Assembly (NCBI GenBank): GCA_003024785.1
Contig: PUQB01000002.1
Span: 1,824,840-1,888,839 of the forward strand
Source: Selaginella tamariscina
Lineage: Eukaryota > Streptophyta > Lycopodiopsida > Selaginellales > Selaginellaceae
Length of the DNA stretch: 64,000 bases
Direction of reading: 5' to 3'
A model generated the notes under the pieces. That model ran no database searches. It was not told the origin of the DNA and saw only the letters and a list, made by a program, of their open reading frames with translations. A program made the position numbers and the translations under genes. Positions 4,273 through 62,488 of this stretch are shown here, piece after piece. Position 1 is the first letter of the stretch. Each line of letters begins with the position of its first letter.

Positions 4273-4480
4273 GTGGGTATCCATCATTTTATATATCTCA
4301 CTTATAGATCAACAACACAGTACTATAATGGGTTGAACATACATACACACACCTATAATGAGTTAAAACACGCACGCACAAAGAATTATCTGTATATGAA
4401 CTGTCAGTCCAATAAGAAAAGAACTCAGAAAGACATATACACACATATAATATACATGTATTTGTGTGTGCGCAAAGGTC

Positions 4481-4488
4481 TCTCTCTC
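4481..4488. repeat. Left target-site duplication of element 1 copy 1
   Basis: TCTCTCTC directly precedes the element, and CCTCTCTC follows it at 12808-12815 (one mismatch). The uninterrupted paralogous sequence at about 61911-61935 reads GGTCTCTCTCTCACACGC, so this is an insertion into a single 8-bp (or 9-bp) site. Low complexity makes the exact length uncertain by a base or two. Confidence 0.75.
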
Positions 4489-4606
4489 GAGTGTCGCCAT
4501 TTTGGAGGCTTGGGGCCCAGGAGGCCTGGGCTCGAATATTCAAGAATATTCTAGAATATTTTGGAATATTCTTTCTGGTCGGCAGTATTGGCCTCAGTCG
4601 GCAAAA
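4489..4606. repeat. Left terminal inverted repeat and subterminal region of element 1 copy 1
   Basis: It begins GAGTGTCGCCATTTTGGAGG, then carries three or four GAATATTC-like palindromes (about 4532-4572) and two copies of the GTCGGCA word (about 4579-4604, 'ggtcggcag' and 'ctcagtcggca'). GAATATTC clusters recur just inside the right end, and CAGTCGGCA recurs there and in the central array. Confidence 0.8.
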
Positions 4607-4679
4607 AAGAATTCTATTAAAACTGTTTTTTTTTTATTTTTTTTTATATTAGCTTAATTTATTACTCAATATACATTAG

Positions 4680-7600
4680 CTAAAGTTTCTTCTTCATCTT
4701 AAGTAAAGCTGCAGTTCTCGAACCACCAGTTACGCTTGGACGTGGAGGTGTTTGAGTAGGTAACTCTTCTGGTCTAATGTTCTCTGCAAGCTTGTTTGTT
4801 GCCAACCTAGAGAGTTCGAAACTCTTCTCGGTTCCTATAATATTCCTTCCGAGCTCGACGGCAGCTAACAATGATGACCCGGTTCCGGAACCAATATCCC
4901 AGACTAGGTCGCCAGGTCTACTGAGACGCTCGATCAAAAGCTGCATGAGTCGAACACTCTTCGGTTGAATCATAATCCTGCACAATCTTCCATTAGGATA
5001 AACATAGCAAAGCACTTCCTTACCAAGCCTCCTGATAACGGTCGGCAGTGTCGACGAGGATCGTGTTCGTCAACGCCAGAGGGTTTGGCCTCTTCGACTT
5101 CTTCTCAGAGCTTTGCAGCACCAAGAGAACTAACAAGTTATCCTGCCACATAGACCAAGTTAAACTTGAACTTGAATAGCTAGCTTACCTTAATTTTGTC
5201 ACGGTATCCCCAGCCTCGTGCACGGTAGACGCTGTAAGTCCCTGCAACCTCCAAGTTGATTACTGCAGCCGCCTGAATCACCGCCGAAACAGAAGGAGAA
5301 CTCGCGAAGACGACCATGAAACCACTCGCTGCCAAGTGCATTCCACTGAACTGCAAGGCCTCCTCAAACTTCACCGGATCTAGCTGCACAATGTCCTTGT
5401 TGATGCTAGCACCTCCATATACAAGCTCATTGGGCAAGTCGAGGATGATGAGGTTGAAGCCGTATTCACCTACCACTTCCTGGAACAACGTTTGTGACTC
5501 AACCGTATGTAGTCTGTCAACCTGTTCTCGGAGCTTGGTGTACACCTCTGTCTGGGAAGCACCGGCTCGAAGAAAGACCTGCTCATCTCCTCCATGTCGC
5601 ACACAGCTAGGTCGTAGGATCCACGGGATGCAGCCAGGGTCGGGATGAAGGTCATCAGGTCGTCCTTGATGTCCAAACTAGCTACAAGTGGCTGTACCTC
5701 ATTGATTGTAAAGTCGAATGCCGGCGGAGGTGCTGTAGAAGAGCTTGGTCCCGCTCCCGATCCCTTTGCAGGTGTAGTTGTCTTCCGCACCGTCTTCTTC
5801 ATCTTGCTCTTCTTGATAGCCTCTACTTCTTCTGGCTCCCAAACAATCGCTGGTAGATCATTGGCGTGCATGTCGAATAGTGTGCTCTCCCAAGCTGGTG
5901 GCTGTTGCGACGGACAGTCGAGCCAGAATGGAACATGCTCCCGTTCGAACGGTGTTAGAGCTCCTCTGCTCTTCGACCACATGTGAGGCTCGCTTGTATG
6001 ATCTGTCCACAGCTTCATCGTATGGGACGGTGTCATTTGCTTCGCCAGTATGAACCTGCAACACAAAGTCAGACAGTAGCAATGCTGGATTGAAAGCTTA
6101 CCTCCATATCATCCGACGCGCAGATTCCTCACGCTCCAGAAACTCATTCGGCTCCATCGAATAAGTGAACCGTATGCAGTCATGGAAGGGCTGAAAGACC
6201 AGGCACTTGCTCCGAATTCTCATCTCGTCAAACCAGCTCATGAAGTCGACATCCGTTCCAACTTCTTCACCATCCTCTCGCAACCCCTTAAGGATCTGAA
6301 TGGCTTCCTCGCGCACAGCCTTCCAATATAAGTCCAAGGTGAACCACTTGATCCACTCTTTGTCCTGCATGCCCGGTAGCCCAAGTGTCTGTTGTTCTGC
6401 CTTGGATTCGAGACGGGTGAGCTTGTTCAGGTATCGGAGTCGCAGCATGTTTGGAATCTTCGCCCTTGACATCGCATACAGCTTCTCAATGCCCATCCAG
6501 CGACACTGCTTATGAGAGATGTTTGTCACCTTCTGGAACCACTCCTCCCCCAAGTCTGGGTCTATGATGGAGAGGAACTTGTGCATACGCTTGTCATGCT
6601 TCTTGTACACTAGCTGCTTTAGGTTCACCTCAACCTGTGAATTGCCCTTAGCACTGGTGACTGCTCTGTCGAGATCATCGTCGATCTCGTTCTGCACATA
6701 GAACAAGTTAAAAATTTCTTTCCTATAAATTAAATCGGAGGTTACCTTGAAAAGTATCTTTGCGCAGATCAGGTTCGGAAGAGGATGCCAAGCCGTCTTT
6801 CCTGATGAACTCTCCTTCCACTTCCGCACCTCAAGACGATCAACCTCCGTGAGTGACTCGAGGATTTTCTGAGTTCCTTCTGTACTAGTGCAGACCGCCT
6901 TTACAGCGAGGAGAATATGTGGTAGCGTTGTTTCCACAGATGTTGCTGAAGATCTGTTCAACGAAACTGTAAGTCTAAACTCTTAACAAAAAGAAAAGAA
7001 AATACTCACATGTTAATCGATTGGAACATCGAAACCAGTTGAAGAATGTCGAGGTTCTCCGTGGAGATGAAACTCGATCGAACGCGAATAGCCCATCGCT
7101 GGTTGTCCTCTGCATCCTCTCGGTACAGCTTCTGCAAAGCCTGTAGCCTATGGTTCCCGTCCCAGCAGCTAAACTTCCTGTTTGAGAGCCTTGAAGCCCA
7201 CTGTTTGTACTCCGGCTGAGTAAGAGCTTGCTCGAAAGACCGGTGCTGCTCGTACTGAATCGTGTCCTTCGACAGCTCCGATAGCTCCTCAGCAGTGAGT
7301 CGATCTCCGATGGACAGAATGAACAAGGCCGTGTTGCGTAGATAACCAGCCTTCTTCAACGATGACACCAGCCTGTCCAAGTCCCCTGGGTTCACTCGTC
7401 GAACCACCTCGTTGGAATGTATTCTGCAGATGGGCACATCAGGAGGATCACCAAGTCCCTTGATAGTAATTTTGTCGAGCAGGTTTGCTGAGCTCTCCAA
7501 ATGCAGGCTCGCCGGTATGCTGTATAACTCCTTCGGCTCCTTATCGCTCTTCGCCTTCTTGCCTTTTGAATCAGCTTTCCCGCGGCCTCTCTTTTTGCTG

Positions 7601-7905
7601 ACTGCCTCCTCCAAGTCGTCCTCGCTAGCTTCAGCTGCCTCTGTCATCTGCACTTGCTCGTTCAGGACTGCAACCTCAGCGGATGAAGGAGGCAACTGCG
7701 ACGAGCTCTCCGGGAAATCTGTGATTGTTGGTGGAGGCTGTTCTTGCTCAACTGCTACTACTCCAGACTGAGTCACTGGAGGATCCTCCTTTGCTACATT
7801 AGATGGTTCTCCTCTCTTGCCTCGCTTCTGCTTCGATATCCTCTTCTCTTCCCGTGGCTCTTCATCAGGCGCAGTCTCTAGTAGACGTTTTGAAGCTCTC
7901 ACCAT
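4680..7905 (-). CDS. ParB-like / beta-class DNA methyltransferase-like protein, element 1 copy 1
   Basis: The gene has five exons on the minus strand: 7905-7010, about 6953-6746, 6691-6102, 6055-5189 and 5142-4680. Its short introns (about 45-60 bp) have GT/AG borders, and it would encode about 1,000 residues. The N terminus is charged and Lys-rich (KKRGRGKADSKGKKAK, about residues 104-119), a likely nuclear signal. Residues 156-298 resemble ParB/sulfiredoxin-fold domains, with GNHRLQAL near 250. About 400 residues of unassigned sequence follow. The C-terminal third has methyltransferase motifs in beta-class order. A motif IV-like LIILDLPNE (near 772) comes first; PKSVRLMQLLIERLSRPGD, then a DIGSGTGSS motif I near 938 and LGRNIIGTE follow. 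The usual DPPY is DLPN in both copies, so methylation activity is doubtful. This copy has a one-base loss near 5565 and a one-base gain near 5050. The first intron's acceptor was chosen because it keeps the frame. ParB-methylase pairings are known in phages; here the gene is transposon cargo. Confidence 0.8.
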
Positions 7906-7981
7906 TTTGTAAACTCTGGAAAGTAAACACACAAGTCAATTGATGAGGAGTCAAAATAAAAAAACAAACAAAGATGACTAA

Positions 7982-8935
7982 CCTTGTGGCTGCCGACTCA
8001 AGCTAGATGTGCCGACCCTCTCAGTCGGCAGAGAGATGTAGAAGAAAAAACCTGCCGACTGAGATAGTTTGTGCCGACTCTGTCAGACGGCACTGAAGAG
8101 ATAATGGTGCCGACTGAGATAGGATGGTGCCGTCCCTCTCAGACGGCACAAATGGGAAGACCCATTAACTGTTTTAAAAGAAATACTTGAGACGCAAAGA
8201 AAAAAAAAACTAATTCAAAATACCTTGTGGCTGCCGACTGAAGAAGGATGGTGCCGTCACTCTCAGTCGGCACAAATGGGAAGACACTATAACTCTGAAA
8301 AAAAAACATTGTTATACGGATACTTGAGCCGCAAAGCAAAATATAAACAAATTCAAAATACCTTGTGGCTGCCGACTGAAGAAGGATGGTGCCGTCACTC
8401 TCAGTCGGCACAAATGAGAAGACACATTAACTCTGAAAAAAAACAATGTGATACGAATACATGATCCAGAAAGCAAAAAAAAAAAAAACGAACATACCTT
8501 GTGGCTGCCGACTGAACTAGGATGGTGCCGTCACTCTCAGTCGGCACAAATGGGAAGACCCATTAACTCTGAAAATAAAAACCTTGTGATACGAATACTT
8601 GAGCCAGAAAGCAAAAAAAAAACAAATCGAAAATACCTTGTTTTTGCCGACTGAACCAGGATGGTGCCGTCACTCTCAGTCGGCACAAATGGAAAGACCC
8701 ATTAACTCTGAAAAAAAACATTGTGACACGTATACTTGAGCCGCAAGGAAAAAAATAAATAAATCGACGATACCTTGTGTTTGCCGACTGAACCAGGATG
8801 GTGCCGTTGCTCTCAGTCGGCACAAATAAGAAGACCCTATATCTCTGGAAAAAGAAATACTTTGAGCAGCAAATCATAAAATACAGAAATTACACATACC
8901 TTGTGGCCGCCGGCTGAGCAGGATGGTGCCGAGAA
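7982..8935 (-). repeat. Tandem exon-like palindromic array, about nine units (element 1 copy 1)
   Basis: About nine units occur, the distal ones spaced about 125-140 bp and the three nearest the gene more tightly. Each holds TGCCGACTGA, a 20-25 bp spacer, then TCAGTCGGCA: perfect 10-bp arms in most units and degenerate in the first and last. Read on the minus strand, the distal units begin after a pyrimidine tract with TTTTCAG, run about 71 bases, and end at CACAAG followed by GTAT, so each looks like a small exon between 50-70 bp introns. The unit nearest the gene ends CACAAG-GTTAGT, and a TTTCCAG acceptor precedes the start codon of the ParB-methyltransferase gene. The 71-base length is not a multiple of three, and units carry a micro-ORF (MGLPICAD then stop), so a spliced 5' leader fits better than coding exons. 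A binding-site array is the alternative. Confidence 0.8.
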
Positions 8936-9446
8936 TCTAAATCGGCACAGAAATCTCCATTGTTATACTTGGGCGCTGCACGAATCGAGTCGAAATGGAT
9001 GGCGCCGCAGTGGAAACCGTAACTCTGAGATCTGAGATTGAAGAAACCCTCTGGATCTGCCGCAGTGGAAACAGATCTGAGATTGAAAGAACCCTAGCCG
9101 CAATGGAAACAGTAAACCCTATCTACCAAAAAACCCTAGCCGCAATGAAAACAGTGAACCCTACGGAATAAATGTGACATTAATATTTAGGGTTTATTTT
9201 AAAATATGTGAATAATTGGTAAATGTGAAGATATTTCAAATCATAAAAGGTAGAAATTAAATTAAATCGGTGATACTAGAGAGGACATCATTAAGAACAC
9301 TGTGAACTGGGCAGCATAGAATTAATTATATACAAACGTGTATTCACGTTTATTGTTAACGATTGTAATTTTTTTTTGGTAAGAGAAAGTGTGTTTAATC
9401 TTTTGCTTTGCTTTCCTAAACCACCGAGCTTTCTCCTTGCGTTGTC
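8936..9446. promoter_or_regulatory. Shared divergent promoter region of element 1 copy 1
   Basis: This is the gap between the array (minus-strand gene) and the transposase start codon. It holds repeated telo-box-like words (AACCCTA/AAACCCT) at about 9043-9157, within a repeated phrase 'ccctagccgcaatg'. AAACCCTA boxes are known promoter elements in plants. A pyrimidine-rich leader precedes the ATG at 9447. No clear TATA box was assigned. Confidence 0.5.
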
Positions 9447-12400
9447 ATGGCCAGAGTTACCTATGAAGGCATTGACAAAGATTTCCCAGTCGATGAAGAT
9501 GGAAATGCTTTTGTGTTTGAACATGATCTTCACATTGCTTTCAACATTCCTTGTTGGTTCAGTATACATGTGGTTCAATTGATGTCAGTTTCTGCGAGTT
9601 CTGGAGAAGATGTGGAGTTGTTACCAGAAGGCAATGCATCAAACCAGTTTGTCTTTTACACATTGTGCCCGGCAAAGGGCCCGTTGTTCAGGTTGCGGAC
9701 AGAGGAGCGTGAGGAATCCATGCTGGTGTGTCTTCTAAGAGCAGACAAATGTAGGATAGGGAAGGATCTCATTGGTTCGTCTGAAGTTAAACGAGTCTCT
9801 GAACTACCGCAGATATACAATGGAAATGTCATTTTCGAACTTCCCCCTAAGACAGAAAGCACAGAGAAGTACTCGGGGATGAATCGCAAGGATGGCTGCT
9901 ACCATTGGACACACCCGAGCACAACACACTGGCATGTTCCGGCGCGAGTCAGTCGAAGTTCATGTGTCGGACATCTCCAATGCATCAATCCTACCTGCCC
10001 CTACTTGGCTTTTGAGAAGAAAGCAAATGAATGTCACTTCAAGGGTGCTGTGGAGAAGGCAAAGACAACTGAGACAGGCAAAGTAATAGGCATAAAATGT
10101 AAGCATTGTGGAGAGGAGCCATTGCTGGTGCACACTTGTCCGGCTTATGTGTACTACATTCTGCCAGACGACATTTCTTTTACAAGGTTGTTCATTCACA
10201 GAGGTGTTCATCAGCATCCAGTCAGCCCCTCAGTGTCAGCTTCAAACGTTCAGCGAGCCAGATCTAGTGTCAGCAACGTGGTAAAGAGCAGTCCGCGAAC
10301 CAATCAACGAGTGATTGAGTTTCAAGCCGCGCGTGAGCTCATCTTTGAAGAACTTTTCAAGGAAGAAGGAGAAGTCTCGTACACTGGTTTACTCTCAAAA
10401 CTTGAACCTCTAACAAACCATCGAAGGTATTTTTTTTAGATCTCTACACACTGACGTGACCTTTTCTTTAGGACTCGGGACTGGATTACACAATCAAGAC
10501 AGAAGGAGACACACTTTAGAGAGGGTTACGAGGGTCTTCTGGAGCTGAAGACAAAGCTGCCAATACCTTTCATTCACGTCATACATGTTCCAGGGATGGA
10601 ACTGCATGGTGCTGAGGAGCAGCCTCTGATCTTCAAAATGACAGTTGAGGGACCGGGTTCAGGAGTTGAGTACATCAGAAGGTGTCAAAGTGGAGGAGAC
10701 CTTCATGATCAATGGGTTGTTCTGGACCACACGCACCGCATACCAGACTGGGCGACAATTGGAATACACCTTTATGACCCATTGTAAGTTGTAAAACTCT
10801 TCATAACACTTTCTAATCTTCGTTATCTAACGCTCTCTTGCAGTGTCAGATCCATGGTGACTATAGCTTACGCAGATATGTGCCGCGAAGATAATGTTGC
10901 AGTGCTGAAGTTCTTGAACACAATGCTAGAGGTTTGTAAGAAGCAGGGTTTGGAGAATGTCAACTTTGCTGGTTTCATGTCGGATGAGGCTGGAGCGATA
11001 TGGATAGCCTTGCGCCAAGTATTCAACAACGGAGCAAAGATGAAAGGGAGGGAAAGAAGCTGTCTGTTTCACTTTATGCAATCCGTGCGTCAGGTGACAA
11101 AGAAATGGATCGCAGAAGAACATCGCGAAGAACACATGAAGCTTGCTCGTGCCTGGCCTGCAGCACTGAATGAACAATCTAAGAAAGAACAACTGGCAAT
11201 TCTCGAGTCTTTTGGGAAGGACGAGCGTCAAACATTCGAGCTTTGAAGACATGGCTGTCTTGGTGGATCAGGCATGAGGACCACATCTCCATGGCGGAAC
11301 TGGGAGACATGACAGAAGAAGGACTCGCGAGCGTTCCAACTACAAACAATGCTGAAGTGATTCACGCGAGAGCAAGAAGAGCAAGATTGGCCAAAAGAGT
11401 ACCACTGCTGGAGGCGACAATGTTAGACCTCACCGATGCAGTTATGCAGAGTGCGAAGGTGAAAGCGGCAATAGAAGGGAGGTATACAGGGTCAGGGCCT
11501 TCGAAGGAAACTCTGTTGAAACGAGTGCAACGCAAACTCTCTGAGGGGAAAAGTGTATCTCCATCAACAATTATTAATCTGGTGGAAGGCGAGGAACACT
11601 TGACCAGCCCGGAGTTCACGAGTACCACTAACGTTCGAGTGCAAACTGTTAGGAGAACAGTCACAGGAACAGAACAGTCTGATGCTCGACGTTCACACAG
11701 ACATGATGTAGAGTACACAGAGCGGGTGGTCCAAAACAACAGGAGAAAGAGGTTAAGGTTCGAAGAGGTTTCGGAGAGAGAGATTGCTCAAACAGAGTGG
11801 GCCATCAGACGAATCGGAGCATCCAGTAAGGTTAAGTGTTTGGGGATGAATCAGGAAGGAACTGCTCTGTGTGGAAAACCAATCGGTTATCCAAGCAGAG
11901 TGCCAGCACCAGGATTCTATGGAAAACGAATGTACATTGATGCCTTGGGGAATGAGGAGTATGTACAACAGATGATGTGGTTCTGCCCAAAAGATTCAGG
12001 GTGTTTCACGCGGCCAAACGGCAAAATTCTTCGGTCACGAATTCCAACACCACCAACGGTTTGGCCTGTGCTCAAGGAAACGAAGCTGACAAGTGAGGAG
12101 GTCAGAGAACTACAGGATGCAGGCTTTGTTCTGGAAGGTTTACAGGGGATGGCAGGAAGAGTAGATGAGGGTCAGAAGGACAAAACACCATCGCCACCAC
12201 GTGGAGCTGGATCTACAACAATTCCACCTTTCGAAGGACGTATGGTTCGGACTCCAACAAAAATGTCTAAGGAACAAGAGAAGAATTTCCGCAAGGCCAA
12301 GACGTTTTTAGGTTGTGTGCGAAATGTTGAAGTGACAGCTAGAGGACGGAAGGAGGCTTTCGTTGTGTCGGCAGGAAATGACTCTGCAAAGGTGACTATT

Positions 12401-12610
12401 AATACTTATCCTTCATGCAGTTGTTCTACATTTCAGAAGAGCAAAAGTTGGAGCCCATGTGTACACATGTACTTCGTCTATAGCCGTGTGCTTGGCTTGA
12501 ACCCGGAAGTCACATATTTTCTACAAAGGCGATCGCTCAGTGACATGGAGGTCCACCGTTTGCTGGTGAATTGCAACAGAGTTCATGACCCACCGGTGCT
12601 ACAAGGATAA
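9447..12610 (+). CDS. MULE-like DDE transposase with SWIM zinc finger, element 1 copy 1
   Basis: There are three exons: 9447-10426, 10472-10783 and 10844-12610, with GT/AG introns of 45 and 60 bp. The exon phases fit, giving about 1,019 residues if one base lost near 11213 is discounted. Residues 165-260 form a Cys/His zinc-binding region (CINPTCPY, CKHCGEE, ending GVHQHP) like the WRKY/FLYWCH-type DNA-binding fingers of MULEs. The catalytic triad is visible as VLDHTHRI (D near 410), FMSDEAGAI (D near 478) and TTNNAEVIHAR (E near 602), with the C..H motif SCLFHF between the last two. A further Cys cluster (about residues 790-850) precedes a SWIM finger near residue 955 (CSCSTF, then CVHMYF). 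The product would bind the element ends and catalyse cut-and-paste transposition in the nucleus. The frame change near 11213 is absent from copy 2 at the same place. Confidence 0.9.
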
Positions 12611-12639
12611 ATGGTTTAGGGTTTAGGATAATGTTTTAT

Positions 12640-12807
12640 TAAGCCAGTCGGCATATATTAAGCCAGTCGGCATATTAAAAAAACTTATATATTCTAGAAT
12701 ATTCTTGAGAATATTCTAGAATATGCTAGAATAACCCTAGAATATCCGCGAATATACTAGAATAATATGAAGCCTCCTGAGCCGGAGCCTCCTTTTCGCT
12801 GAGACCC
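12640..12807. repeat. Right subterminal region and terminal inverted repeat of element 1 copy 1
   Basis: It carries two AAGCCAGTCGGCATATT words, a cluster of GAATATTC/CTAGAATAT words, and the inverted terminal repeat ending CGCTGAGACCC. The GTCGGCA words lie in the same plus-strand orientation as those at the left end, so they are direct, not inverted. The target duplication CCTCTCTC follows at 12808-12815. Confidence 0.8.
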
Positions 12808-12828
12808 CCTCTCTCACACGCACACACA

Positions 12829-13185
12829 GTTTAGTAACCTGTCTAAGTGGATAGCGAGAGTGGGAATACGTAAGATCGGTTCATTAACCTTGACAAGCAC
12901 ATGATTAAAAGCTCCCTCTTTATTCTTAATAAATGCTCGTCCAGCAAACACTTAAATCTCTGTCAAACCTGGAAAACATAATAACAATTACTATAATAAC
13001 CATATATATATATAGCAAATTTTATGTAATATATTATACCATCCACCTCCATAGGTTTGAACACCAATATTTAAAAACCCGGATTTTGTTGAAGCAGATA
13101 TTGGTTTAAGTTTTGGACATCGACTGTCTGTATGTGCTGCTATAATGTGAAACCCATTGCCATAAATTTTAAGCTGACCAGCATA

Positions 13186-13220
<35 letters not shown>

Positions 13221-14062
13221 GGGGGGGAGAGAAAGGAGAGAGTTAATAGCAATATATAGATAAAATGAATAGTATGCTGACCATGTGTGTGTGAGAGAGA
13301 GGGAGAGAGAGGGAGAAGAGAGAGAGAGAGAGGGAGGGAGGAGAGAGTACTAGCTAAGTACATTAGTATATAGTCCATGAAGAGGTCTCTTGTCACATCT
13401 TATCTGTTATTATGAAGATATGAATGCTCCCCAGGTTTACCAGTATACAGTGTATATGCATACTATGTATACACTCATATACGTATGCTAATGTGTACAC
13501 ACATGCATATATATGTATAGTTAAGATGAATAGTAAAGAAGAAAGAAAACATACTTCTGACCTATGGCAAATGCCACCAAGGTAGACATGTTTCTAGTGA
13601 AGAAATAGCGGCTTCCAGGTTCAATATTGGACCACTCATCTTCCTCGTTTATTTGCAGAAATCCAGCTTCTAAAAGCATCCTTTTCGCCTCCACTAAACA
13701 TAATTAATTAAAATTAACTAAATAATCTCTTATATATATATATATATATCAAGTACTCAGAATGTGTCTCTAAATGGTTTATACCTATCTGTTAGATATA
13801 TATATTAAAACCATTTTGAACACACACACGACATATATGTGTCTGCATGATGTGCATATACAGTTGTTTTCTTTTTCATACATACATGCATACACACACA
13901 CACACACGTGTGTGTGTGTGTGTACATGCATAAGACGTATTCTGCTGTGTGTGATGTGTATCTGAAACACACATACACACACACTTCAAACTTACTCGTA
14001 GCATGAAAAGGGGTCCATGATGCATTTAAAAAAGCAATGAAATCGGAAACAATAGAAGGGTC
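12829..14062 (-). pseudogene. Aspartyl aminopeptidase (M18) remnant, copy A, N-terminal exons
   Basis: Four minus-strand exons match the N-terminal half of plant aspartyl aminopeptidase. Exon 14062-13996 reads DPSIVSDFIAFLNASWTPFH. Exon 13693 to about 13555 reads AKRMLLEAGF and then RYFFTRNMSTLVAFAIG. Exon about 13157-13040 reads GFHIIAAHTDS, which holds the zinc-ligand His, and then SGFLNIGVQTYGGG. Exon 12968 to about 12830 reads FDRDLSV and then ILRIPTLAIHLDR. Compared with copy B, this copy lacks the start and acceptor of the third exon, and its GGGLWHTW segment is shortened to GGGW. Element 1 is inserted only about 14 bp beyond the donor side of the last exon. Together with 3558-4135 these exons form one broken gene. 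Confidence 0.88.
13181..13350. repeat. (GT)n(GA)n minisatellite, two units, in aminopeptidase intron
   Basis: Two units of a roughly 85-bp repeat, each a GT tract followed by a GA/GGA tract and 'agagagttaatagcaatat...', lie in the intron. Copy B of the gene carries three such units at 62350-62600, so the array has changed length since the duplication. Confidence 0.85.
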
Positions 14063-14753
14063 CTGTAGACAAAAAAAATTAAATAGAAATTAAACATATA
14101 AATATAAATTACCTTATTAGGAGCAGGGGTTGTTGGAATGTGCTTTGTATTTTATAGCTGGAATCTAATTAGATTCCTAGGAAATATTTTTGGATTCCTG
14201 TTCTTTGTTCCCACAATCCATGTAGCATACGCAACAGCAGCTTGTAATATCATACAAGCCATGCCCTATAATCAATGTTTAATAATGTTTAATGTTGTTA
14301 GCATTAAAATATGATGTTATTAACCGCTCTTTAACATTAACATTTATCATATATGCATGCATTCTGCAGATAATTTAAAGTTGTCAAATTTATTCATTAT
14401 TTTATTTTTATAAATTTCCAACACATTAGTACACAGAAGGTTTCGTTCTGACTAATTCAAAGTTAGCTAAAATTTAATTTGATTCATATGCATCAAAATT
14501 ATATTTTAATATTTCAGTCTTATTATAAGCTATATAGACACATGTATTTACCCACTAAACATAAATGATATTAAATTATGTGATCAATAGTGATCTACAT
14601 ATTATTAATTCATTAATTTAGTAGCGGTCAAACTTTTGTAGACTTCATATATTTATACAACCTTTATAATTATTTTTAAAACATATTGGACTAGCACTAT
14701 GTTGTATATTGGTGTTTTAATGCATACTTTCCTGTTTCGTGCAGGAGAGTGGT
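14063..14753. other. Upstream flank of aminopeptidase copy A, duplicated at 63316-64000
   Basis: This AT-rich flank matches 63316-64000 base for base apart from small indels, so the segmental duplication extends beyond the coding exons. A minus-strand stretch near 14105-14275 has a TATAAAATA word and a possible splice donor after CCTGCTCCTAATAAG; it could be the first leader exon of the aminopeptidase gene. I see no further protein match. Confidence 0.5.
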
Positions 14754-15638: not shown

Positions 15639-15643
15639 TCTGT

Positions 15644-16327
15644 TGGTTGACGGCGGCCCGTCATCGCGGCTAGCCAGCGGGATGCCCACCGGCGCGGACG
15701 AGCAATTGGACAAAGCGCCGAATAAGGGAGGTACTTCAGGTACGGACTGATGGTGACCGATGTCAGGCGGCGGCGTAATTGGGCGTAGATCCGATCGTCC
15801 GGACCAACTACCTAGGGTACGAAGGACAGCATGCGTGGGGAGGCGCATAAATGTGACAGGTAGGACTCTGTCACCAGGCAACAGACCAATGGGAGAACGC
15901 CACCTGTAGCTAGGGTCTAGCGGTAGGTAACCCACTATATAAGCCGGAAGGCGGGTAGTGGGTCGAGGTCTTTTAGAGTCAGGTCTGCGTCTTATATCTT
16001 GCTTCACTGTCGGAGATAGTTTGTACTCAGACATGCAATATATATATCCATTTTCCTTCTATTCACCTCACAAGTGGGCGGTCCCTGCTTGCCCGACTCC
16101 TGGGCCCCGCAACACTCTCTGCCCAGTCATCACAGTAGATTTCCCCTTACCAGTACACGGACCCTCGCGGCGTTCCGGTAGAGGCCATCCAATACCTTCC
16201 ATTACTCATGAGGTAAGCCCCGGCTTGCTAGCCGAACCCCGGGGTTGGACGCCCTCAACAGCGTCCTAGCGACCACTGCAGCTTCCTGAGAAGCACCACA
16301 TCTGGCCTACGGAGTCCCCGACAACCA
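15644..16327 (+). repeat. 5' LTR of the Ty3/gypsy fossil
   Basis: This is the direct repeat partner of 25096-25780, with TG...CA termini (TGGTTG...CAACCA) and the TCTGT target duplication on its outer side. It is GC-rich relative to the host spacer. Confidence 0.92.
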
Positions 16328-17899
16328 TTTATGGCGACCACGGAGGGATAGATAGTACACACAGATGGAGTTCACTATAGCAAGTAGAGTGGCCTGACGA
16401 AGAGCTGAGATTAACTCATTCAAACAAATAAAGATTGACGAGCAACAACTGACCAGGAGAATGTGCGGGCCGGCCGAGGGAGATTAATGGAAGGCGGCGA
16501 GGCACCTCGGTTGCCACAATCAGCCCCTGCCTCACCTACCCGAGGGAACAACGATAATGCCGCATGGCGAATCTTCGAGCAGCGGTAAACTTGGCATACC
16601 AGTGATCGAGGCAGTCGCACGCTGCTGACGACGAAGAGGGATATGAAGGAACCATAGCACGTCCAGACGACAATCCAGGCACGGCAGCATGAGGGTATGA
16701 ACAGCACCCAGACGAGCGACTTCTCCCGACAGTAACCTACAACGTAGAGTGGAATGGATGGCAAGACGACGAAAGTCATTCACCTCTTGACGTAGGTGAA
16801 AGTGATGGCCACGAAGAGCCCCCATACCAACGAGCAGAACTAGTGTTTGACGAGTACCCCCGAAGGAGAAAACCTCACCCAGGACAACCCCAGGAGAGGG
16901 CAGGCCTGCGACGAAGGCAAGAATCTCGAGGGGGCGAAAGCAACATGGATAGTGACGGAGGACGTGAGCCAGAAGCCCAGTGTGACCAATGCCACAATGG
17001 AGGTAAGATAGGAAACCTAGGGCCATCATCACCCATCAAGGTGACACGAGGGGCCCGTGTCTGCCCGGAAAGAGGGGAGGAAGAGCCTCATTCGGGAAGC
17101 CCCCATAGGGAGGGGCATCGATTGCCAACAAGGCAACCTCTGCACCAGGTGTTCAGCCTATCGGATGATGCAGCAGGTTAGGGTGGTTACCAAGATGAGA
17201 ACCCAAGACTTCGGAAGGCCGAGGTACACATGGGACAACTACCTGTGCGGAGCGACTAGACGTCAATGAGCTGACGGACTGGGAGGAGGCACCAGAAAGA
17301 GGGGCCGCACAGTGGCTACCTTGGAGAAGGGACGAGAGGAATTCGTCCAAGGACAGGAGAGATTCGCCTGAGCGATTAGTATCGCATCGGCCCTATGAGG
17401 GAAATCCGCCAGGGCACACAGTAGAGCCGCAACCACACCAGACGGGGGGATACCATCTCGGGGCGAGGAGGAATCGCCCCATCGATCACGACCGTCTAGA
17501 CGTCGCGGGGGGATTTTGCGCACGGTCATACAAAACTACTCGCTGGAGGAGAGAAAACCGTCCAGCCAAGGTAAGCTGCGCCACCAGCCGTCAGGTTGGT
17601 CCCGAGGCGGGGGCCCCGAGGGACAGTCGGAAGAAGCCCATCCTCGTCACCCACCCTCAACGGGAGAGTAGGGCTGCAAGGAAGGAGAAAGGTGTCCGCA
17701 GAATACCAAGACGTGGACTACACTATGTCCGAAGTAGGGGTCCAGATCAGAACAACTCTCAGGCACAACGAGACGCCATGGGAACCGACCGGTCACCTTA
17801 TTAGCCCGAGTGCTCAATTGGATGCAGGAGAGCACCGTAACAGTGCCCTTACCCGCATTCCGTGGAGCGAAGGGGGAAGACGCAGACCAACACGTACAC

Positions 17900-22440: not shown

Positions 22441-25095
22441 CACCATACCTAGCTTAGACGAGCCTGGACCAAGGATCACGGACAAACCAGCGGCTGCGCA
22501 GAAAAGACTGGAACAGTTGGAGCAACTGGACGAAGTACGATTTCTAGCATAGCTACGAGAGAAAATCAACAACAGCAGACCAAACAAGCTAGAGACAGGA
22601 AAAAAAACTCCGAGAATATAAACCAGGGCAGTGGGTATGGTGGTTCAAAACCACAGGCATTCGAAAGGCAAATTCGACCAGGGTGGAAAGGACCATATGA
22701 GGTGCTAAAAACCTTCGACAATGGCACGATTCTCCTAGGGGCCAATGGACAGCCGTTGCAACAGAAGGTTAACAGCAACCATCTCAAGCCATACGTTCAC
22801 CCAACAAGAACACTGGCTTGGAGGGAACAAGAGAGAGAGGTAAACCCCATGGGCCTTGGGACGAAGGCACGGCCGAAGTAGCGACGTTAAGGACCGGGGA
22901 GGAGGCACCCAACGGGGGAGCGGGACTCCAGCCCACATGAGTGGCCAGCCCACAAGGTCACATGGTTCACGAGGGTGGACCACAGCGTGAGCACGTAAAA
23001 TGGGGCAATAATGGCATGGCACCATGAATGCCTGATTATGGCGCGTGGAAGGATGTGCGTGGATCCAGCAAGGTAGGCCGCCACGTAGGCACCATCTTTG
23101 GAAAGACAACAAGGGGTGAGCCAGGGCACGCCACTTTTCACAGGAAGATCGACCATTCCAGCAGCAAAGATGATGGAGTGGACCATGCAGAACAAGTCCG
23201 GTGACCATCTAGCACGTCCAGGTGCGGTACAAAGGCAGGATAGGAGCGTGGCGCTCGTAGCCCCCAGGTTCTCCAGATTTCAAGGAGTTGATCAGTAGAC
23301 CCAATGTGCGGAGGGTGCAAAAGCAGATGCGACTGCTCGGACTTTTCGATCCCATTGGGGAGAAGTAGAGAAGCCCAAATTTGTAGCACAGGGCATCCAA
23401 TTCATCCAGACCGTAGCTGGAGACGGGGAAAACCAAGCGAGAGGAGCTGCGATTCAGGTTAGGGGACTCGTGACCTTCTGTATCGATCTCAGAGCTGGCC
23501 GCAATTTTGTCTACCGAAAAATGGCATACTCTTGGACGACCTGGGGGAACCCAAACGCCAGTGGTTCCCCACCAACCGAGATGAAATCGCAATGTCCCGA
23601 CTCTCCATATAGGAAGGGGACGAAGTGGACAAGTTCCTGGCGCTTGCGGTGTTTATGTTCACCAGAAGGACAGAGAGGCGGGTCGCCACCGACTAGCGAG
23701 CACCCTCTATAGCGCTGGGAAGGAGTCACAGTGGATTGGGCGGATTGCCTCAGGCACTACATGATACCAGCCCTGACCCGCGGCATCAACGGGATCCGGA
23801 AGGGAACCGGACAAAGGCTCATAACTGTGGGCCACCTCACGTGATGATCGCCTAGATAGTCAACGAACCCCGATTCTCCTATTGATTAGTTCTACTCAGC
23901 CACCATCGGGGAATCGGGCAGGAGAACAGGCGGGCCCCAGTCAAACCGAAGAAGGAAAACAGCCGGACACTCCGGAGTCTTCCGAAAACGGGCGAGAGAA
24001 GACTCCCTTGTGGAGAAAGCCAGGGGAGGGACCGCAGGGAAAATCAGAGGGCCTCCACCACGGTATCCCCACCGGCAGCTCCAGGAGCAGAGGCCCCACC
24101 AGCCCAAGGCCTGCGGAACACGGGGGAGGGCCCCGCCGGCCCCTCACAAGCCAACGAAGTGAACAGGAGGAAGACACAAGCAACGTGCTGAGGGGACGTA
24201 CAAACACTTCAACGAAGGGGCTATGGACCTCTACAGTGCATATGGATATGTCCAAAGCCTTCGGCCAAGTCCGGAAGTCCATAGCGGTGTACAATGGGTT
24301 GGATCTCAAGGGGTTACACGGAGCATGACGCAATAATACAGGAGCTCACGGATAACTACCGCGCCGCTTAAAAGGAGGCCCGGGAGTACTCGGACCAGCT
24401 CATCAAGGAACCCAACTTTGGGACATTGCGGAGTCGGGAGGAAGCAAGCAAAGAGACGTGTTAACAGTTAACTGACAGCTTGGATCAGCTACAAATCAAG
24501 TATGACCACATCTAGAAACTCCACGACCAACTAAGACGGAGATTTGAGTAGGTCACGGCAGAGAAAGGAGTGATAGGTTTTTGAGCTAGGATCCAACTTG
24601 AGCAACGCGAAGCGGAGCTCAACGGGTCACCAAGAGCTGGCCACGGCCAAGGAAGAACTACACCGGGCCACCGCTCGAAATCATCCTCGCACTTCCTCAG
24701 AGAGACCCATGCCCGAATCGTGTGGAGCTCTGGTGACCATCCCCCACTTGTGGAGCGCCAACCAATCAAGAACCACAGGACTTGGCACGGACCATCAAAG
24801 AGCTAGAGGTACACACCCAGCTACAGGCTCAACTCCTCGCGGCAAGGGAACAGGAGCTGCAACACTCGTGAGAACGAGCGCAGGACCTGGAGGTTCAGCT
24901 CAAGCAGGTTCAGAAGCAACAGGCAGGGTCCGAGGCAAAGCTCCGAAGGGTGATCCCGCTAGAGGCGACCATCCACCACATTAAAGACCATCCTAGTGGC
25001 AACAGAGAGCGAAATCACCATGTACTGGGAGCTCCAAGGGGCAGATAACTAGGGCACATGGCTCGAGAACGTGCCAATGAATAAGTCCGGGCATT
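22440..25095 (+). other. Extra 3' region of the Ty3/gypsy fossil, partly coiled coil
   Basis: After integrase there is about 2.6 kb before the 3' LTR. Plus-strand fragments near 24780-24960 read as a heptad-rich, Gln/Glu/Leu-rich coiled coil. The part near 23880-24330 is Pro/Gly/Glu-rich. I do not recognise a named domain. Extra 3' open frames are known in some plant Ty3/gypsy lineages. Confidence 0.5.
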
Positions 25096-25780
25096 TGGTT
25101 GATGGTGGCCCGTGATCACGGCCAGCCGGCGAGACGCCACCGGTGCGGACGAGTGACTAGAAAAGCGCCAGATAAGGGAGGTACTTCAGGTACGAACTGA
25201 TGGCGATTGATGTCAGGCGGCGGTGTAAATATACGGCGTAGATTCGATTGTTCAGACCAACTACCTAGGGTACAAAGGATAGCACGCGTGGGGAGGCGCA
25301 TAAATGTGACAGGCAGGACTCTGTCACCAGGCGGCAGACCAATGGGAGAGCGCCACCTGTAGCTAGGGTCTAGCGGTAGGTAACCCACTATATAAAGCCA
25401 GAAGGCGGGTAGTGGGTTGGGGTCTTTTGGAGTTAGGTTTGCGTCTTATATCTTGCTCCACTGTCGGAGATAGTTTGTACTCAGACAGGCAAATATATAT
25501 ATCTATTTTCCTTCTATTCACCTCACAAGCAGGCGGTCCCCACTTGCCCGACTCTGGGCCCCACAACACTCTCTACCCAGTCATCATAGTAGATTTCCCT
25601 TACCTATACATGGACCCTCGCGGTGTCTGGGTAGAGGCCATCCAATACCTTCCATTACTCCTGAGGTAAGGCCCAGCTTGCCAGCCGAACCCCCGGGGTT
25701 GGACGCCCTCAACAGCGTCCTGCGACCACTGCAGCTTCTTGAAAAGCACCACATTTGGCTTGTAGAGTCCCCGACGACCA
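25096..25780 (+). repeat. 3' LTR of the Ty3/gypsy fossil
   Basis: This is the direct repeat partner of 15644-16327, followed immediately by the TCTGT duplication at 25781-25785. Confidence 0.92.
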
Positions 25781-25785
25781 TCTGT

Positions 25786-32060: not shown

Positions 32061-32335
32061 AAATTTCTATCCATTGTGAGCACGTGTACTAATATCTTAA
32101 ATATAAATTTTAGAAGTTTGAAATTGCCTATGTTCAAGTATATTTTAACGAGTGTTGCCATTTTGGAGGCTTGGGGCCCATGAGGCCTGGGCTCGAATAT
32201 TCTAGAATATTTTAGAATATTCTTTCTGGTCAGCAGTATTGGCCTCAGTCGGCAAAAAAGAATTCTAGTAAAACTGTTGTATTTCTATCTTATTCTTTTT
32301 TATATTAGCTTAATTTATTACTCAATATACATTAG

Positions 32336-35300
32336 CTAAAGTTTCTTCTTCATTTAAGTAAAGCTGCAGTTCTCGAACCACCAGCTAGGCTTGGACGTGG
32401 AGGTGTTTGAGTAGGTAATTCCTCTGGTCTATGTTCTCTACGAGCTTGTTTGTTGCCAACCTAGAGAGTTCGAAACTCTTCTCGGTTCCTATAATATTCC
32501 TTCCGAGCTCGACGGCAGCTAACAACGATGATCGGTTTCAGAACCAATATCCCAGACTAGGTCGCCAGGTCTACTGAGACGCTCGATCAAAAGCTGCATG
32601 AGTCGAACACTCTTCGGTTGAATCATATCCTGCAAACTTCCATTAGGATAAACAAAGCAAAGTACTTCCTTACCAAGCCTCCTGAAAATGGTAGCGGTGT
32701 CGACGAGGATCGTGTTCGTCAACGCCAGAGGGTTTGGCCTCTTCGACTTCTTCTCAGAGCTTTGCAGCACCAAGAGAACTAACAAGTTATCCTGCCACAT
32801 AGACCAAGTTAAACTTGAACTTGAATAGCTAGCTTACCTTAATTTTGTCACGGTATCCCCAGCCTCGTGCACAGTAGATGCTGTAAGTCCCTGCAACCTC
32901 CAAGTTGATTACCGCAGCCGCCTGAATCACCGCCGAATACAGAAGGAGAACTCGCGAAGACGACCATGAAACCACTCGCTGCCAAGTGCATTCCACTGAA
33001 CTGCAAGGCCTCCTCAAACTTCACGGATCTAGCTGCACAATGTCCTTGTTGATGCTAGCACCTCCATATACAAGCTCATTGGGCAAGTCGAGGATGATGA
33101 GGTTGAAGCCGTATTCACCTACCACTTCCTGGAACACCGTTTGTGACTCAGCCGTATGTAGTCTGTCAACCTGTTGTCGGAGCTTGGTGTACACCTCTGT
33201 CTGGGAAGCACCCGGCTCGAAGAAAGACCTGCTCATCTCCTCCATATCGCACACAGCCAGGTCATAGGATCCACGGGATGCAGCCAGGGTCGGGATGAAG
33301 GTCATCAGGTCGTCCTTGATGTCCAAACCAGCTACAAGTGGCTGCACCTCATTGATTGTAAAGTCGATTGCCGGCGGAGGTGCTGTAGAAGAGCTTGGTC
33401 CCGCTCCCGATCCCTTTGCAGGTGTAGTTGTCTTCCGCACCGTCTTCTTCATCTTGCTCTTCTTGATAGCCTCTACTTCGTCCGGCTCCCAAACAATCGC
33501 TGGTAGATCATTGCCATGCACGTCGAATAGTGAGCTCTCCCAAGCTGGTGGCTGTTGCGACGGACAGTCGAGCCAAAATGGAACATGCTCCGTTCGAACG
33601 GTGTTAGAGCTCCTCTGCTCTTCGACCACATGTGAGGCTCGCTTGTATGATCTGTCCACAGCTTCATCGTCTGAGACGGTGCCATTTTCTTCGCCAGTAT
33701 GAACCTGTAACACAAAGTCAACAGTAGCAATGCTGGAATGAAAGCTTACCTCCATATCATCCGACGCGCAGACTCCTCACGCTCCAAAACTCATTCGGCT
33801 CCATCGAATAAGTGAACCGTATGCAGTCATGGAAGGGCTGAAAGACCAGGCACTTGCTCCGAGTTCGCATCTCGTCAAACCAGCTCATGAAGTCGATATC
33901 CGTTCCAACTTCTTCACCATCCTCTCAACCCCTTAAGGATCTGAATGGCTTCCTCGCGCACAGCCTTCCAATATAAGTCCAAGGTGAACCACTTGATCCA
34001 CTCTTTGTCCTGCATGCCTGGTAGCCCAAGTGTCTGTTGTTCTGCCTTGGATTCGAGACGAGTGAGCTTGTTCAAGTATCGGAGTCGCAGCATGTTTGAA
34101 ATCTTTGCCTTTGACATCGCATACAGCTTCTCAATGCCCATCCAGCGACACTGCTTATGAGAGATGTTCGTCACCTTCTGGAACCACTCCTCCCCCAAGT
34201 CTGGGTCTATGATGGAGAGGAACTTGTGCATACGCTTGTCATGCTTCTTGTACACTAGCTTTCAGGTTCAGCTCAATGTGGATTGCCCTTAGCACTGGTG
34301 ACTGCTCTGTCGAGATCATCGTCGATCTCGTTCTGCACATAGAATAAGTTAAAAACTTCTTTCCTATCAATCAAATCGGAGGTTACCTTGAAAAGGATCT
34401 TTGCGCAGATCAGGTTTGGAAGAGGATGCCAAGCCGTCTTTCCTGTTGAACTCTCCTTCCACTTCCGCACCTCAAGACGATCAACCTGTGAGTGACTCGA
34501 GGATTTTCTGAGTTCCTTCGGTACTAGTGCAGACCGCCTTTACAGCGAGGAGAATATGTGGTAGCGTTGTTTCCACAGATGTTGCTGAAGATCTGTTCAA
34601 TGAAACTGTAAGTCTAGACCCTTAACGAAAAGAAAAGAAAATACTCACATGTTTATCGATTGGAACATCGAAACCAGTTGAAGATTGTCGAGGTTCTCCG
34701 TGGAGATGAAACTCGATCGAACGTGAATAGCCCATCACTGGTTGTCCTCTGCATCCTCCCGGTAGAGCTTCTGCAAAGCCTATAGCCTATGGTTCCCGTC
34801 CCAGCAGCTGAACTTCCGGTTTGAGAGCCTTGAAGCCCACTGTTTGTACTCCGGCTGAGTAAGAGCTTGCTCGAAAGACCGGTGCTGCTCGTACTGAACC
34901 GTGTCCTTGACAGCTCCGATAGCTCCTCAGCAGTGAGTCGATCTCCGATGGACAGAATGAACAAGGCCGTGTTGCGTAGATAACCAGCCTTCTTCAACGA
35001 TGACACCACCTGTCCAAGTCCCCTGGGTTCACTCGTCGAACCACCTCGTTCGAATGCATTCTACAGATGGGCACATCAGGAGGATCACCAAGTCCCTTGA
35101 CAGTAATTTTGTCGAGCAGGTTCGCTGAGCTCTCCAAATGCAGGCTAGCCGGTATGCTGTATAACTCCTTCGGCTCCTTATCGCTCTTCGCCTTCTTGCC
35201 TTTTGGATCAGCTTTCCCGCGGCCTCTCTTTTTGCTGACTGCCTCCTCCAAGTCGTCCTCGCTAGCTTCAACTGCCTCTGTCATCTGCACTTGCTCGTTC

Positions 35301-35540
35301 AGGACTGCAACCTCAGCGGATGAAGGAGGCAACTGCGACGAGCTCTCGGGAAATCTGTGATGGTTGATGGAGGCTGCTCCTGCTCAACTGGTACTACTTC
35401 AGACTGAGTCACTGGAGGATCCTCCTTTGCTACATTAGATGGTTCTCCTCTCTTCCTCGCTTGTGCTTCGATATCCTCTTCTCTTCCCGTGGCTCTTCAT
35501 CAGGCGCAGTCTCTAGTAGACGTTTTGAAGCTCTCACCAT
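32336..35540 (-). pseudogene. ParB / DNA methyltransferase-like cargo gene, element 1 copy 2
   Basis: This is the same gene as 7905-4680 with the same exon order, start (35540) and stop (32336). The ParB-like region is near 35100-34650 and the motif IV-like DLPN is again present near 33090. The motif I region is near 32520-32580 with GSETD replacing GSGTG because of a local change. At least five small indels relative to copy 1 shift the frame (for example near 33020, 33590, 34270 and 34910), so it cannot make the full protein as written. Where copy 1 is broken (near 5565 and 5050), this copy keeps the frame, so the two differ independently. Confidence 0.8.
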
Positions 35541-35619
35541 TTTGTAAACTCTGGAAAGCAAACACACAAGTCAATTGATTAGGAGACAAAATGAAAAATA
35601 AAAATCAAAGATGACTAAC

Positions 35620-36200
35620 CTTGTGGCTGCCGACTCAAGCTAGATGGTGCCGACCCTCTCAGTCGCACAGAGATGTAGAAGAACAAATCCTGCCGACTGA
35701 GACAGTTGGTGCGACCCTCTCAGACGGCACTGAAGAGATAATGGTGCCGACTGAGCTAGGATGGTGCCGTCCCTCTCAGACGGCACAAATGGGAAGACCC
35801 ATTAACTCTAAAAAAGAAATACTTGAGCCGCAAAGCAAAAAATAAACAAATTCAAAATACCTTGTGGTTGCCGACTGAACCAGGATGGTGCCGTCACTCT
35901 CAGTCGGCACAAATGGGAAGACCCTTTATCTCTGGGATTCCAACACAAATGGGAAGACACATTAACTTGAAAAAAAAACATTGTGATACGGATACTTGAG
36001 CCGCAAAGAAAAAAATAAACAAATCGAAAATACCTTGTGGCTGCCGACTGAACCAGGATGGTGCCGTCGCTCTCAGTCGGCACAAATGGAAGACCCTTTA
36101 TCTCTGAAAAATAAATTATTTGAGCCGCAAATCATAAAATAAAGAAATTGCACATACCTTGTGGCCGCCGACTGAGCAGGATGGTGCCGAATCTAAATCG
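35620..36200 (-). repeat. Tandem exon-like palindromic array, about six units (element 1 copy 2)
   Basis: This is the same array as 7982-8935 with about six units instead of nine, carrying TGCCGACTGA/TCAGTCGGCA arms and the minus-strand CACAAG-GTAT donor-like and pyrimidine-TTTCAG acceptor-like signals. One unit near 35930 has an extra 'gggattccaacacaaatggg' piece, probably from unequal exchange between units. Confidence 0.78.
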
Positions 36201-36666
36201 GCACAGAAATCTCGATTGATTTACTTGGGCTGCACGAATCGACTCGAAATGGATGGCCGCTCCTCTCAAGCCCCTTGGAGGAGATTTCAGAACTCAGATC
36301 TGAGATTGAAAAAACCCTAGCCGCAGTGGAAACAGTAAACCCTATCTACCAAAAAACCCTAGCCGCAATGAAAACAGTGAACCCTACGGAATAAATGTGA
36401 CATTAATATTTAGGGTTAATATTAAAATATGTGAATAATTGGTAAAGGTGAAGATATTTCAAATCATAAAAGGTAGTAATTAAATTAAATCGTGATACTA
36501 GAGAGGACAGCATTAAGAACACTGTGAGCTGGGCAGCGTAGAATTAATTATATACAAAAGTGTATTCACGTTTATTATCAACGATTATAATTTTTTTGGC
36601 GAACGAGAGTGTGTTTAATCTTTTGCTTTGCTTTCCTAAACCACCGAGCTTTCTCCTTGCGTTGTC
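36201..36666. promoter_or_regulatory. Shared divergent promoter region of element 1 copy 2
   Basis: It matches 8936-9446, including the repeated telo-box-like AAACCCTA words at about 36310-36390 and the pyrimidine-rich leader ahead of the transposase ATG at 36667. Confidence 0.5.
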
Positions 36667-39600: not shown

Positions 39601-39813
39601 CTATTAGTACTTATCCTACATGCAGTTGTTCTACCTTTCAAAAGAGCAAAAGTTGGAGCTCATGTGTACATGTACTTTGTTTACAGCCATGTACTTGGCT
39701 TGAACCCGGACATCACATATTTTCTACAAAGGCGATCGCTCAGTAAGATGGAGGTCCACCGTTTGTTGGTGAATTGCAACAAAGTTCATGACCCACCAGT
39801 GCTACAAGAATAA
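36667..39813 (+). pseudogene. MULE-like SWIM-finger transposase, element 1 copy 2
   Basis: The exons correspond to those of copy 1: 36667-37640, 37687-37998 and 38059-39813, with the same GT/AG introns. The DDE residues (in VLDHTHRI, FMSDEAGAI and TTNNAEVIHAR) are all present, and here the stretch SFWEGRASNIRALKTWLSWW reads through where copy 1 is shifted. Indels in the first exon (near 36925, 37070, 37130 and 37375), near 38685 (two bases) and near the 3' end break the frame, so it is probably inactive. Confidence 0.85.
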
Positions 39814-40032
39814 ATGGTTTCATAAAAATACTTTATTAAGCCAGTCGGCATATATTAAGCCAGTTGACGTATTAAAAAAACTTATATATTCTAGAATATT
39901 CTTAAGTATATTCTAGAATATGCTAGAATATACCTAGAATATCCGCGAATATACTAGAATAATATGGAGCCTCCTGAGCCGGAGCCTCCTTTTCGCCGAG
40001 ACCCTATTTTAAGTGTCAATACAAAGATTTTT

Positions 40033-48577: not shown

Positions 48578-48589
48578 ATTGTCCTGAAC

Positions 48590-48724
48590 ATAAATAATTG
48601 TTTATTTATGATATTTGTTTATGCAATATTTTTAAAAAATCTAAACTGCAGTTACTTAATAATATGCATGTGCAATAATATATAATTATGTATAGAGATA
48701 ATATCTCATGCTTCATTAATACAA
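48590..48724. other. AT-rich gap between transposase-like gene and first palindrome array
   Basis: A short AT-rich stretch without coding potential, on the 5' side of the minus-strand gene; probably leader or intron sequence. Confidence 0.4.
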
Positions 48725-61700: not shown

Positions 61701-61775
61701 CCCTGCAATAACTCTTTGTGGCCACCCAAGAGTTACCCACATGGATCGTGTGTGTTTAAACTTCTCCCATATTGT
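58752..61775 (-). mobile_element. Inverted, truncated copy of the right third of element 2
   Basis: Read on the minus strand, this region repeats 55260-58745: the glycine- and proline-containing middle of the accessory gene (60636-60322), the lysine-rich piece near 61405, the HAD region (about 59900-59500) and the AT-rich tail with GAATATTC words (about 59110-59040). It abuts element 2 tail to tail near 58752, with the outermost terminal repeat bases missing on this side, and ends near 61775 where aspartyl aminopeptidase intron sequence begins ('tctcccatatt' then 'gtaccataatg'). It is more diverged than the two copies of element 1 are from each other, and all its frames are broken. Confidence 0.8.

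Positions 61776-62451: not shown

Positions 62452-62488
<37 letters not shown>

Follow-up and report, generated by a model that had tools for sequence, protein, structure and literature searches.

A once-active two-gene MULE-like transposon in Selaginella tamariscina carries a selected methyltransferase-type gene with a likely ParB-like region

We analyzed a 64,000-nucleotide stretch of the Selaginella tamariscina genome (assembly GCA_003024785.1, contig PUQB01000002.1, positions 1,824,840 to 1,888,839 of the forward strand; hereafter, the window), which contains two copies of a transposon resembling the Mutator-like elements (MULEs). The element is a real, once-active DNA transposon with two genes, and it was inserted at one of two duplicate sites. 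One gene encodes a transposase. The other, referred to as the cargo gene, is a selected gene of the element and not a passive capture, and the end of its product has a solid sequence match to the beta class (N4-cytosine or N6-adenine) of DNA methyltransferases. Tentatively, and at slightly under an even chance, we propose that this product is a ParB-methyltransferase accessory protein which recognizes the motif TGCCGACT, marks or scaffolds the DNA there and aids expression or anti-silencing of the element.

The two copies are 96.5% identical in aligned columns, and each holds the two divergent genes. The copies and the insertion site of copy 1 are as follows.
Positions 4489 to 12807, no strand assigned: element copy 1, with ends GAGTGTCGCC... 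and ...GAGACCC; an element-free duplicate of its flanks lies in the window.
Positions 32150 to 40004, no strand assigned: element copy 2, laid out as copy 1, with TATTTTAA at either side.
Positions 4481 to 4488, forward strand: target duplication to the left of copy 1, reading TCTCTCTC; its right counterpart is CCTCTCTC at 12808-12815.
Positions 61803 to 63987, forward strand: element-free duplicate of the copy 1 flanks, found by self-comparison of the window.

An earlier annotation of this DNA by a model that saw only the letters (the sequence-only reading) had placed the ends of copy 1 at 4489 and 12807. Comparison of the flanks with the element-free duplicate showed these ends to be correct, and copy 2 bears out its claim of several copies with a common layout. 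Terminal inverted repeats are absent from some MULEs; here they are short and imperfect and centered on GGAGGCT, with agreement at 6 of the first 15 positions and at all of the next 7 (GGAGGCT) in each copy. The target duplication of copy 1 is 8 bp long, matches at 7 of 8 positions and lies within a CT run (TCTCTCTC/CCTCTCTC); the joined flanks contain 7 or 8 extra bases, depending on where the ends are placed (8 with ends at 4489 and 12807). For copy 2, TATTTTAA flanks both sides, one base off the left end as drawn. Target duplications in the MULE superfamily measure 8 to 11 bp according to the sections consulted of a MULE survey (PMC6446971), and both the 8 bp of copy 1 and TATTTTAA of copy 2 agree with this. 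The duplication that includes the insertion site spans about 2 kb (4364-4488 plus 12809-14733 versus 61803-63987), is 84 to 98% identical by piece and has the element in one copy. Aligned with copy 1, copy 2 shows 49 deletions against 10 insertions, often of 1 to 2 nucleotides, a pattern that reflects either deletion-biased decay or assembly error.

Both genes begin centrally and run outward in opposite directions. Their exons and introns were chosen from the reading frames, without transcripts.
Positions 9447 to 12610, forward strand: transposase gene, with predicted exons 9447-10426, 10472-10783 and 10844-12610 and a frame change near 11.2 kb.
Positions 4683 to 7905, reverse strand: cargo gene, with predicted exons 7905-7010, 6953-6746, 6691-6102, 6055-5189 and 5142-4683 and frame changes in exons 4 and 5.
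Positions 6954-7009, 6692-6745, 6056-6101, 5143-5188, 10427-10471 and 10784-10843: predicted introns, GT-AG in both copies.

The divergent layout and the intron-containing cargo gene described in the sequence-only reading were thus borne out, with splicing predicted from GT-AG borders kept in both copies at all six introns. These introns measure 45 to 60 nucleotides, and the 54-nucleotide one is in frame and free of stops and could be coding. In land plants introns are usually longer than this, which may hint at the host or at where the element came from.

Read over its one frame change, the transposase has 1019 residues. By eye, DHTH, MSDEAGA with CLFHF, and TTNNAE resemble the DDE triad of MULEs, and a SWIM-like CxC...CxH lies at the end of the protein. 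SWIM zinc fingers are common in the MULE superfamily, though not universal; the Pfam model PF04434 scored 16.1 bits on the last open reading frame and 13.9 on the whole protein, below its cut-off of 19.6. The Pfam MULE domain PF10551 gave no match up to an E value of 10 in the read-through transposase, and we therefore call the element MULE-like and not a full member. For the SWIM-finger DDE transposase claimed previously, DDE-like motifs are seen by eye and the SWIM finger falls short of the cut-off. Pfam DUF951 was likewise below cut-off (E = 0.0031, 17.9 bits; cut-off, 25). The sole transposase homologue among 7770 candidates was a 696-residue protein from a 2826-base contig in ENA (P0001; E = 8.7e-59), which is 31% identical over 486 alignment columns and keeps the first two acidic positions (D412 and D478). 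When the transposase alignment was run against prokaryote genome contigs, none of 105 pattern matches was confirmed, nor were any of the 11, 36 and 46 pattern matches obtained in viral contigs with the last transposase reading frame, the ParB exon of the cargo gene and the transposase alignment, respectively.

Selection on the two genes was compared between the copies. For the cargo gene, synonymous divergence (dS) was 0.063 and nonsynonymous divergence (dN) 0.019, giving a dN/dS of 0.31 (bootstrap, 0.20 to 0.50; Fisher p = 8e-7); for the transposase gene dN/dS was 0.32 (bootstrap, 0.18 to 0.51; p = 4e-5). In frames chosen by us, 941 of 961 codons entered the calculation for the cargo gene and 997 of 1015 for the transposase gene. 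Gapped codons were dropped, two cargo codons that are a stop in only one of the copies were counted, and sequence near the frame changes and at the beginning of exon 5 had been excluded beforehand. By segment, cargo dN/dS was 0.40, 0.25, 0.25 and 0.41, with few changes per segment. The cargo gene was thus kept as strictly as the transposase gene while both copy lineages were active. Of all our evidence, this equal purifying selection speaks most strongly for a cargo that serves the element.

The low cargo dN/dS also led us to set aside passive capture, that is, a host or bacterial gene without a role, carried as in Pack-MULEs, which we consider very improbable. Acquired gene pieces are frequent in MULEs according to the consulted sections of PMC6446971, and both copies are broken; but the cargo dN/dS is at the level of the transposase, and the gene starts on a side of its own and has several exons, whose splice sites are conserved. 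Pack-MULEs are described in the same sections as elements that lack a transposase gene and contain host gene fragments. We considered and rejected this class for an element with a transposase gene and a cargo dN/dS of 0.31.

When read through, the cargo protein has about 1008 residues and begins with a lysine-rich N-terminus, followed by a ParB-like stretch, by a middle (about 385 residues) that gave no Pfam match, and by a methyltransferase end.
Positions 4800 to 4964, reverse strand: methyltransferase motif X (KSVRLMQLLIERL) and the S-adenosylmethionine (AdoMet)-binding motif I (DIGSGTG, 4878-4898), identified with Pfam, PHROGs, PDB, hhalign and shuffles.
Positions 7010 to 7458, reverse strand: likely ParB-like region, beginning at residue 150 and running through the end of exon 1, with CWDGNHRLQAL at 7135-7167 and a weak signal from a home-made profile.

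The beta-class methyltransferase motifs noted earlier, DIGSGTG included, were confirmed. The motif X-I block matched Pfam N6_N4_Mtase above its cut-off (E = 1.5e-8), phrog_67 in PHROGs (3.7e-11), MboIIA in the PDB (1.5e-5) and, by hhalign, phage ParB-methyltransferases (1.9e-5), while none of 1000 shuffled sequences scored as high. A tblastn search of phages with the cargo protein returned 314 records; among the 20 matches listed, all lay on the methyltransferase block, with best-piece E values from 2e-4 to 0.7.

Between the two genes, the element carries an array of the motif TGCCGACT. In the window this sequence occurs at 27 exact sites, every one within the copies (copy 1 has 18 and copy 2 has 9), against 0.85 expected, a total that includes tandem duplicates and is inflated by the array. 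With the array reduced to one unit, TGCCGACT still ranked first among the non-coding 8-mers of copy 1 (10 seen, 0.02 expected). One copy 1 site lies near the left end, 15 between the gene starts (10 of them in a 137-bp tandem array) and 2 near the right end; both gene spans of copy 1 are free of exact sites, and copy 2 has its sites at matching places.
Positions 8182 to 8853, no strand assigned: tandem array of 4.9 copies of a 137-bp unit, lying between the gene starts; it contains five TGCCGACT...AGTCGGCA pairs spaced by 33 bp, and GTGCCGTC is present in 4 of the 5.
Positions 7991 to 8115, either strand: five exact TGCCGACT sites beside the cargo start, outside the array.
Positions 4596 to 4603, reverse strand: left subterminal TGCCGACT, found by motif search.
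Positions 12646 to 12672, reverse strand: two right subterminal TGCCGACT sites within a 19-bp tandem repeat.

With one mismatch allowed, 19 sites appeared outside the elements (47.8 kb) and four further copy 1 sites in its gene spans; the element specificity is therefore limited to exact TGCCGACT. Together with the equal purifying selection on both genes, this array supports the earlier suggestion that the cargo serves the transposon.

Other repeats lie at the element ends: 4534-4572 and 12689-12765 are arrays of GAATATTC/TAGAATATTC, palindromic 10-bp repeats that resemble heat-shock elements (nGAAnnTTCn) or transposase sites. GAATATTC occurs 12 further times elsewhere in the window. The heat-shock-element reading was set aside, as these arrays are near the 3' ends of the genes and not between their starts.

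According to our model, one gene would supply the transposase and the other a selected accessory protein, composed of the lysine-rich N-terminus, a ParB-like DNA-contact domain, the middle without relatives and the beta-class methyltransferase. This protein would most likely recognize TGCCGACT, clustered between the gene starts and repeated near both ends, and would write a bacterial-type methyl mark there; if an altered motif IV has left the enzyme inactive, the AdoMet-binding domain may instead be used as a scaffold. As a result, the element would stay expressed or be protected from host silencing. The ParB fold is predicted from sequence, as are the binding of the array, the methylation activity and the anti-silencing effect, and self-marking or anti-silencing of the element is our best guess. 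A more specific version, which we hold to be unlikely, is self-recognition in the manner of parS/ParB, in which the ParB-methyltransferase binds the TGCCGACT array and lays a bacterial-type N4-methylcytosine/N6-methyladenine mark, or an AdoMet-dependent block, on the element's own copies, so that they escape 5-methylcytosine silencing by the host.

A number of observations weigh against the proposed accessory role, beginning with the state of the genes: frame changes, a feature missing from the sequence-only reading, occur in both genes of both copies, and both copies are therefore dead. Among 8000 candidates scored, the cargo protein had no homologue at an E value of 1e-3. Moreover, nothing ties the array to the cargo in preference to the transposase. 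A serious rival, although a doubtful one, is that the transposase binds TGCCGACT as its subterminal and autoregulatory sites, while the cargo would act at other places or would not be sequence-specific. MURA of Mutator and the accessory protein TNPA of En/Spm use such sites. That TGCCGACT is found close to the two ends and not just between the gene starts is consistent with this view, and the N-terminal region of the transposase, rich in cysteine and histidine with conserved C and H columns, could bind DNA. On the other hand, 15 of the 18 copy 1 sites are central, unlike a pure end-recognition signal.

The catalytic motif of the methyltransferase adds to these objections. The motifs of the cargo follow the order IV-X-I, as in the beta class, whose catalytic motif IV reads (D/N/S)PP(Y/F/W). 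The candidate in the cargo differs.
Positions 5429 to 5440, reverse strand: motif IV candidate DLPN, with the aromatic residue missing; same in copy 2.

We located this candidate by position and by eye, without a significant alignment, and the half of the methyltransferase that bears motif IV contributed nothing significant to the match (of 1000 partial shuffles each, 310 scored as high with one profile and 131 with the other). Among the 48 phage ParB-methyltransferases of more than 370 residues, 42 have the aromatic [DNS]xP[YFW] and none has DLPN. The altered motif is a warning against the predicted DNA marking. Also serious, and likewise open to doubt, is the possibility that the methyltransferase is catalytically dead and that the protein binds DNA and AdoMet as a regulator, in the way that METTL14 relates to METTL3. 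The missing aromatic residue fits this possibility, as do the intact AdoMet motif I of copy 1 and the selection on the gene. Against it, the placement of motif IV depends on position and eye, and one phage locus (L003) has DLPY, a single residue from DLPN. The rival explanations overlap in part, and both the transposase as array binder and the dead enzyme also overlap our proposal; our confidences in them do not sum to 1.

Profile searches, which placed the N6_N4 methylase above its cut-off, yielded no ParB/Srx match at threshold, whether in Pfam, NCBIfam, PHROGs, the PDB, plasmids or phages. Hhalign against a phage ParB profile returned a probability of 0.3%. The ParB exon alone gave no match at E = 10 among 332 candidates or against plasmids, and against phages it matched one DNA primase (E = 2). 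The region is nevertheless likely ParB on the order of its motifs, VPICRIHSN...LDRLVSSLKKAG...CWDGNHRLQALQKL, which is collinear with the strand-helix-box order of ParB. Our home-made ParB profile comprised 122 phage sequences, from 53 of 80 loci (complete proteins of more than 250 residues) and 69 of the 80 in a second set (near-duplicates left out). It scored 2.4 bits on this region, equalled by 15 of 2000 shuffles, and 6.2 bits, equalled by 4 of 2000, once a loop had been cut out, a cut decided after inspecting the sequence; on the whole cargo protein it scored -1.4 bits. The ParB-like domain of the sequence-only reading thus retains its motif order and a weak profile signal, but no match at threshold in a curated library. 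That the N-terminal region is instead an unrelated DNA-binding or structural domain, with the methyltransferase resemblance alone being real, strikes us as improbable. The empty library searches, the hhalign result and the negative whole-protein score speak for it; against it stand the first strand-helix and GNHR box, collinear with the profile, a sub-threshold ddrB-ParB signal that the loop-less query alone gave over this box (E = 0.2, 12.2 bits; cut-off, 27.6), and a report of an equal domain pair in an algal transposon (PMC12477816, sections consulted).

The latter report shows that the concept of a transposon ParB-methyltransferase is already known. According to its consulted sections, the Ectocarpus element Sola1-1_Ec32 has a gene for a 1104-residue protein with ParB and N4/N6-methyltransferase domains opposite its transposase gene, and green and red algal transposon proteins are cited alongside (Iyer 2011; Petroll 2025). 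Likened by description, both elements encode a protein of roughly 1000 to 1100 residues with an N4/N6-methyltransferase part and a ParB-like part, the latter being a likely one here. Here, too, the gene lies opposite a transposase and a methyltransferase is present, with ParB weak by profile. However, the Ectocarpus element is a 21.5-kb Sola1 in a brown alga, whereas ours is MULE-like, measures 8.3 kb and lies in a genome that has a cytochrome P450 gene of plant type. Our searches of open-access papers yielded no report of a ParB-methyltransferase from MULEs or from land plants, a MULE case being possible among the green and red algal sources, and the word methyltransferase is absent from the consulted main text of the MULE survey PMC6446971.

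What appears to be new here is the element-specific TGCCGACT array, recalling the VANC-target arrays of VANDAL MULEs. As described in the consulted sections of PMC5735166, VANDAL elements with VANC anti-silencing proteins are likewise of MULE type, with a second gene and a short motif in non-coding tandem repeats; these sections mention neither ParB nor a methyltransferase, and the motifs differ (YAGTATTAY; AGTTGTCC and AGTTGTAC), and the likeness to VANC lies in the motif-array feature alone. Phage ParB-methyltransferase fusions have ParB first and a beta-class methyltransferase next, the order proposed for the cargo, and their X-I block aligns with the cargo (53 of 80 loci used). The fusions are shorter, the 48 above 370 residues spanning 382 to 514 (from match start) versus about 1000 here, and 42 of these 48 keep an aromatic motif IV, where the cargo candidate reads DLPN. 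Bdelloid rotifers provide another bacterial-type DNA methyltransferase in a eukaryote, an N4-cytosine enzyme that is presented there as an epigenetic mark and not as a transposon's own gene (PMC8885841, sections consulted).

If our proposal is true, distinct transposon superfamilies (Sola1 in a brown alga, MULE-like here) would each have adopted the same prokaryote-type protein, retained by selection. The TGCCGACT array is a concrete candidate target, and how such proteins serve transposons becomes directly testable. Self-recognition, if true, would add to VANC, and to TNPA of En/Spm, as a route to sequence-specific anti-silencing.

Rfam gave no match at gathering score. Further repeats lie in the rest of the window. 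Direct repeats at 15643-16328 and 25095-25781 (88.7% identity), with gag/pol-like frames between them by eye, are probably the long terminal repeats of a decayed Ty3/gypsy-type retrotransposon. A large inverted repeat (55262-58592 and 59057-61773) is about 79% identical in two aligned pieces and has a reading frame in one arm, and at 47200-48601, on the reverse strand, two long reading frames resemble, by eye, pieces of another transposon-type gene. The right end of copy 2 is 28 bases from the cytochrome P450 reading frame, on its 3' side. The four best PDB relatives of this frame, from which we take the host to be a probable streptophyte, are plant enzymes: the isoflavone, ferruginol and sugiol synthases and cinnamate 4-hydroxylase.

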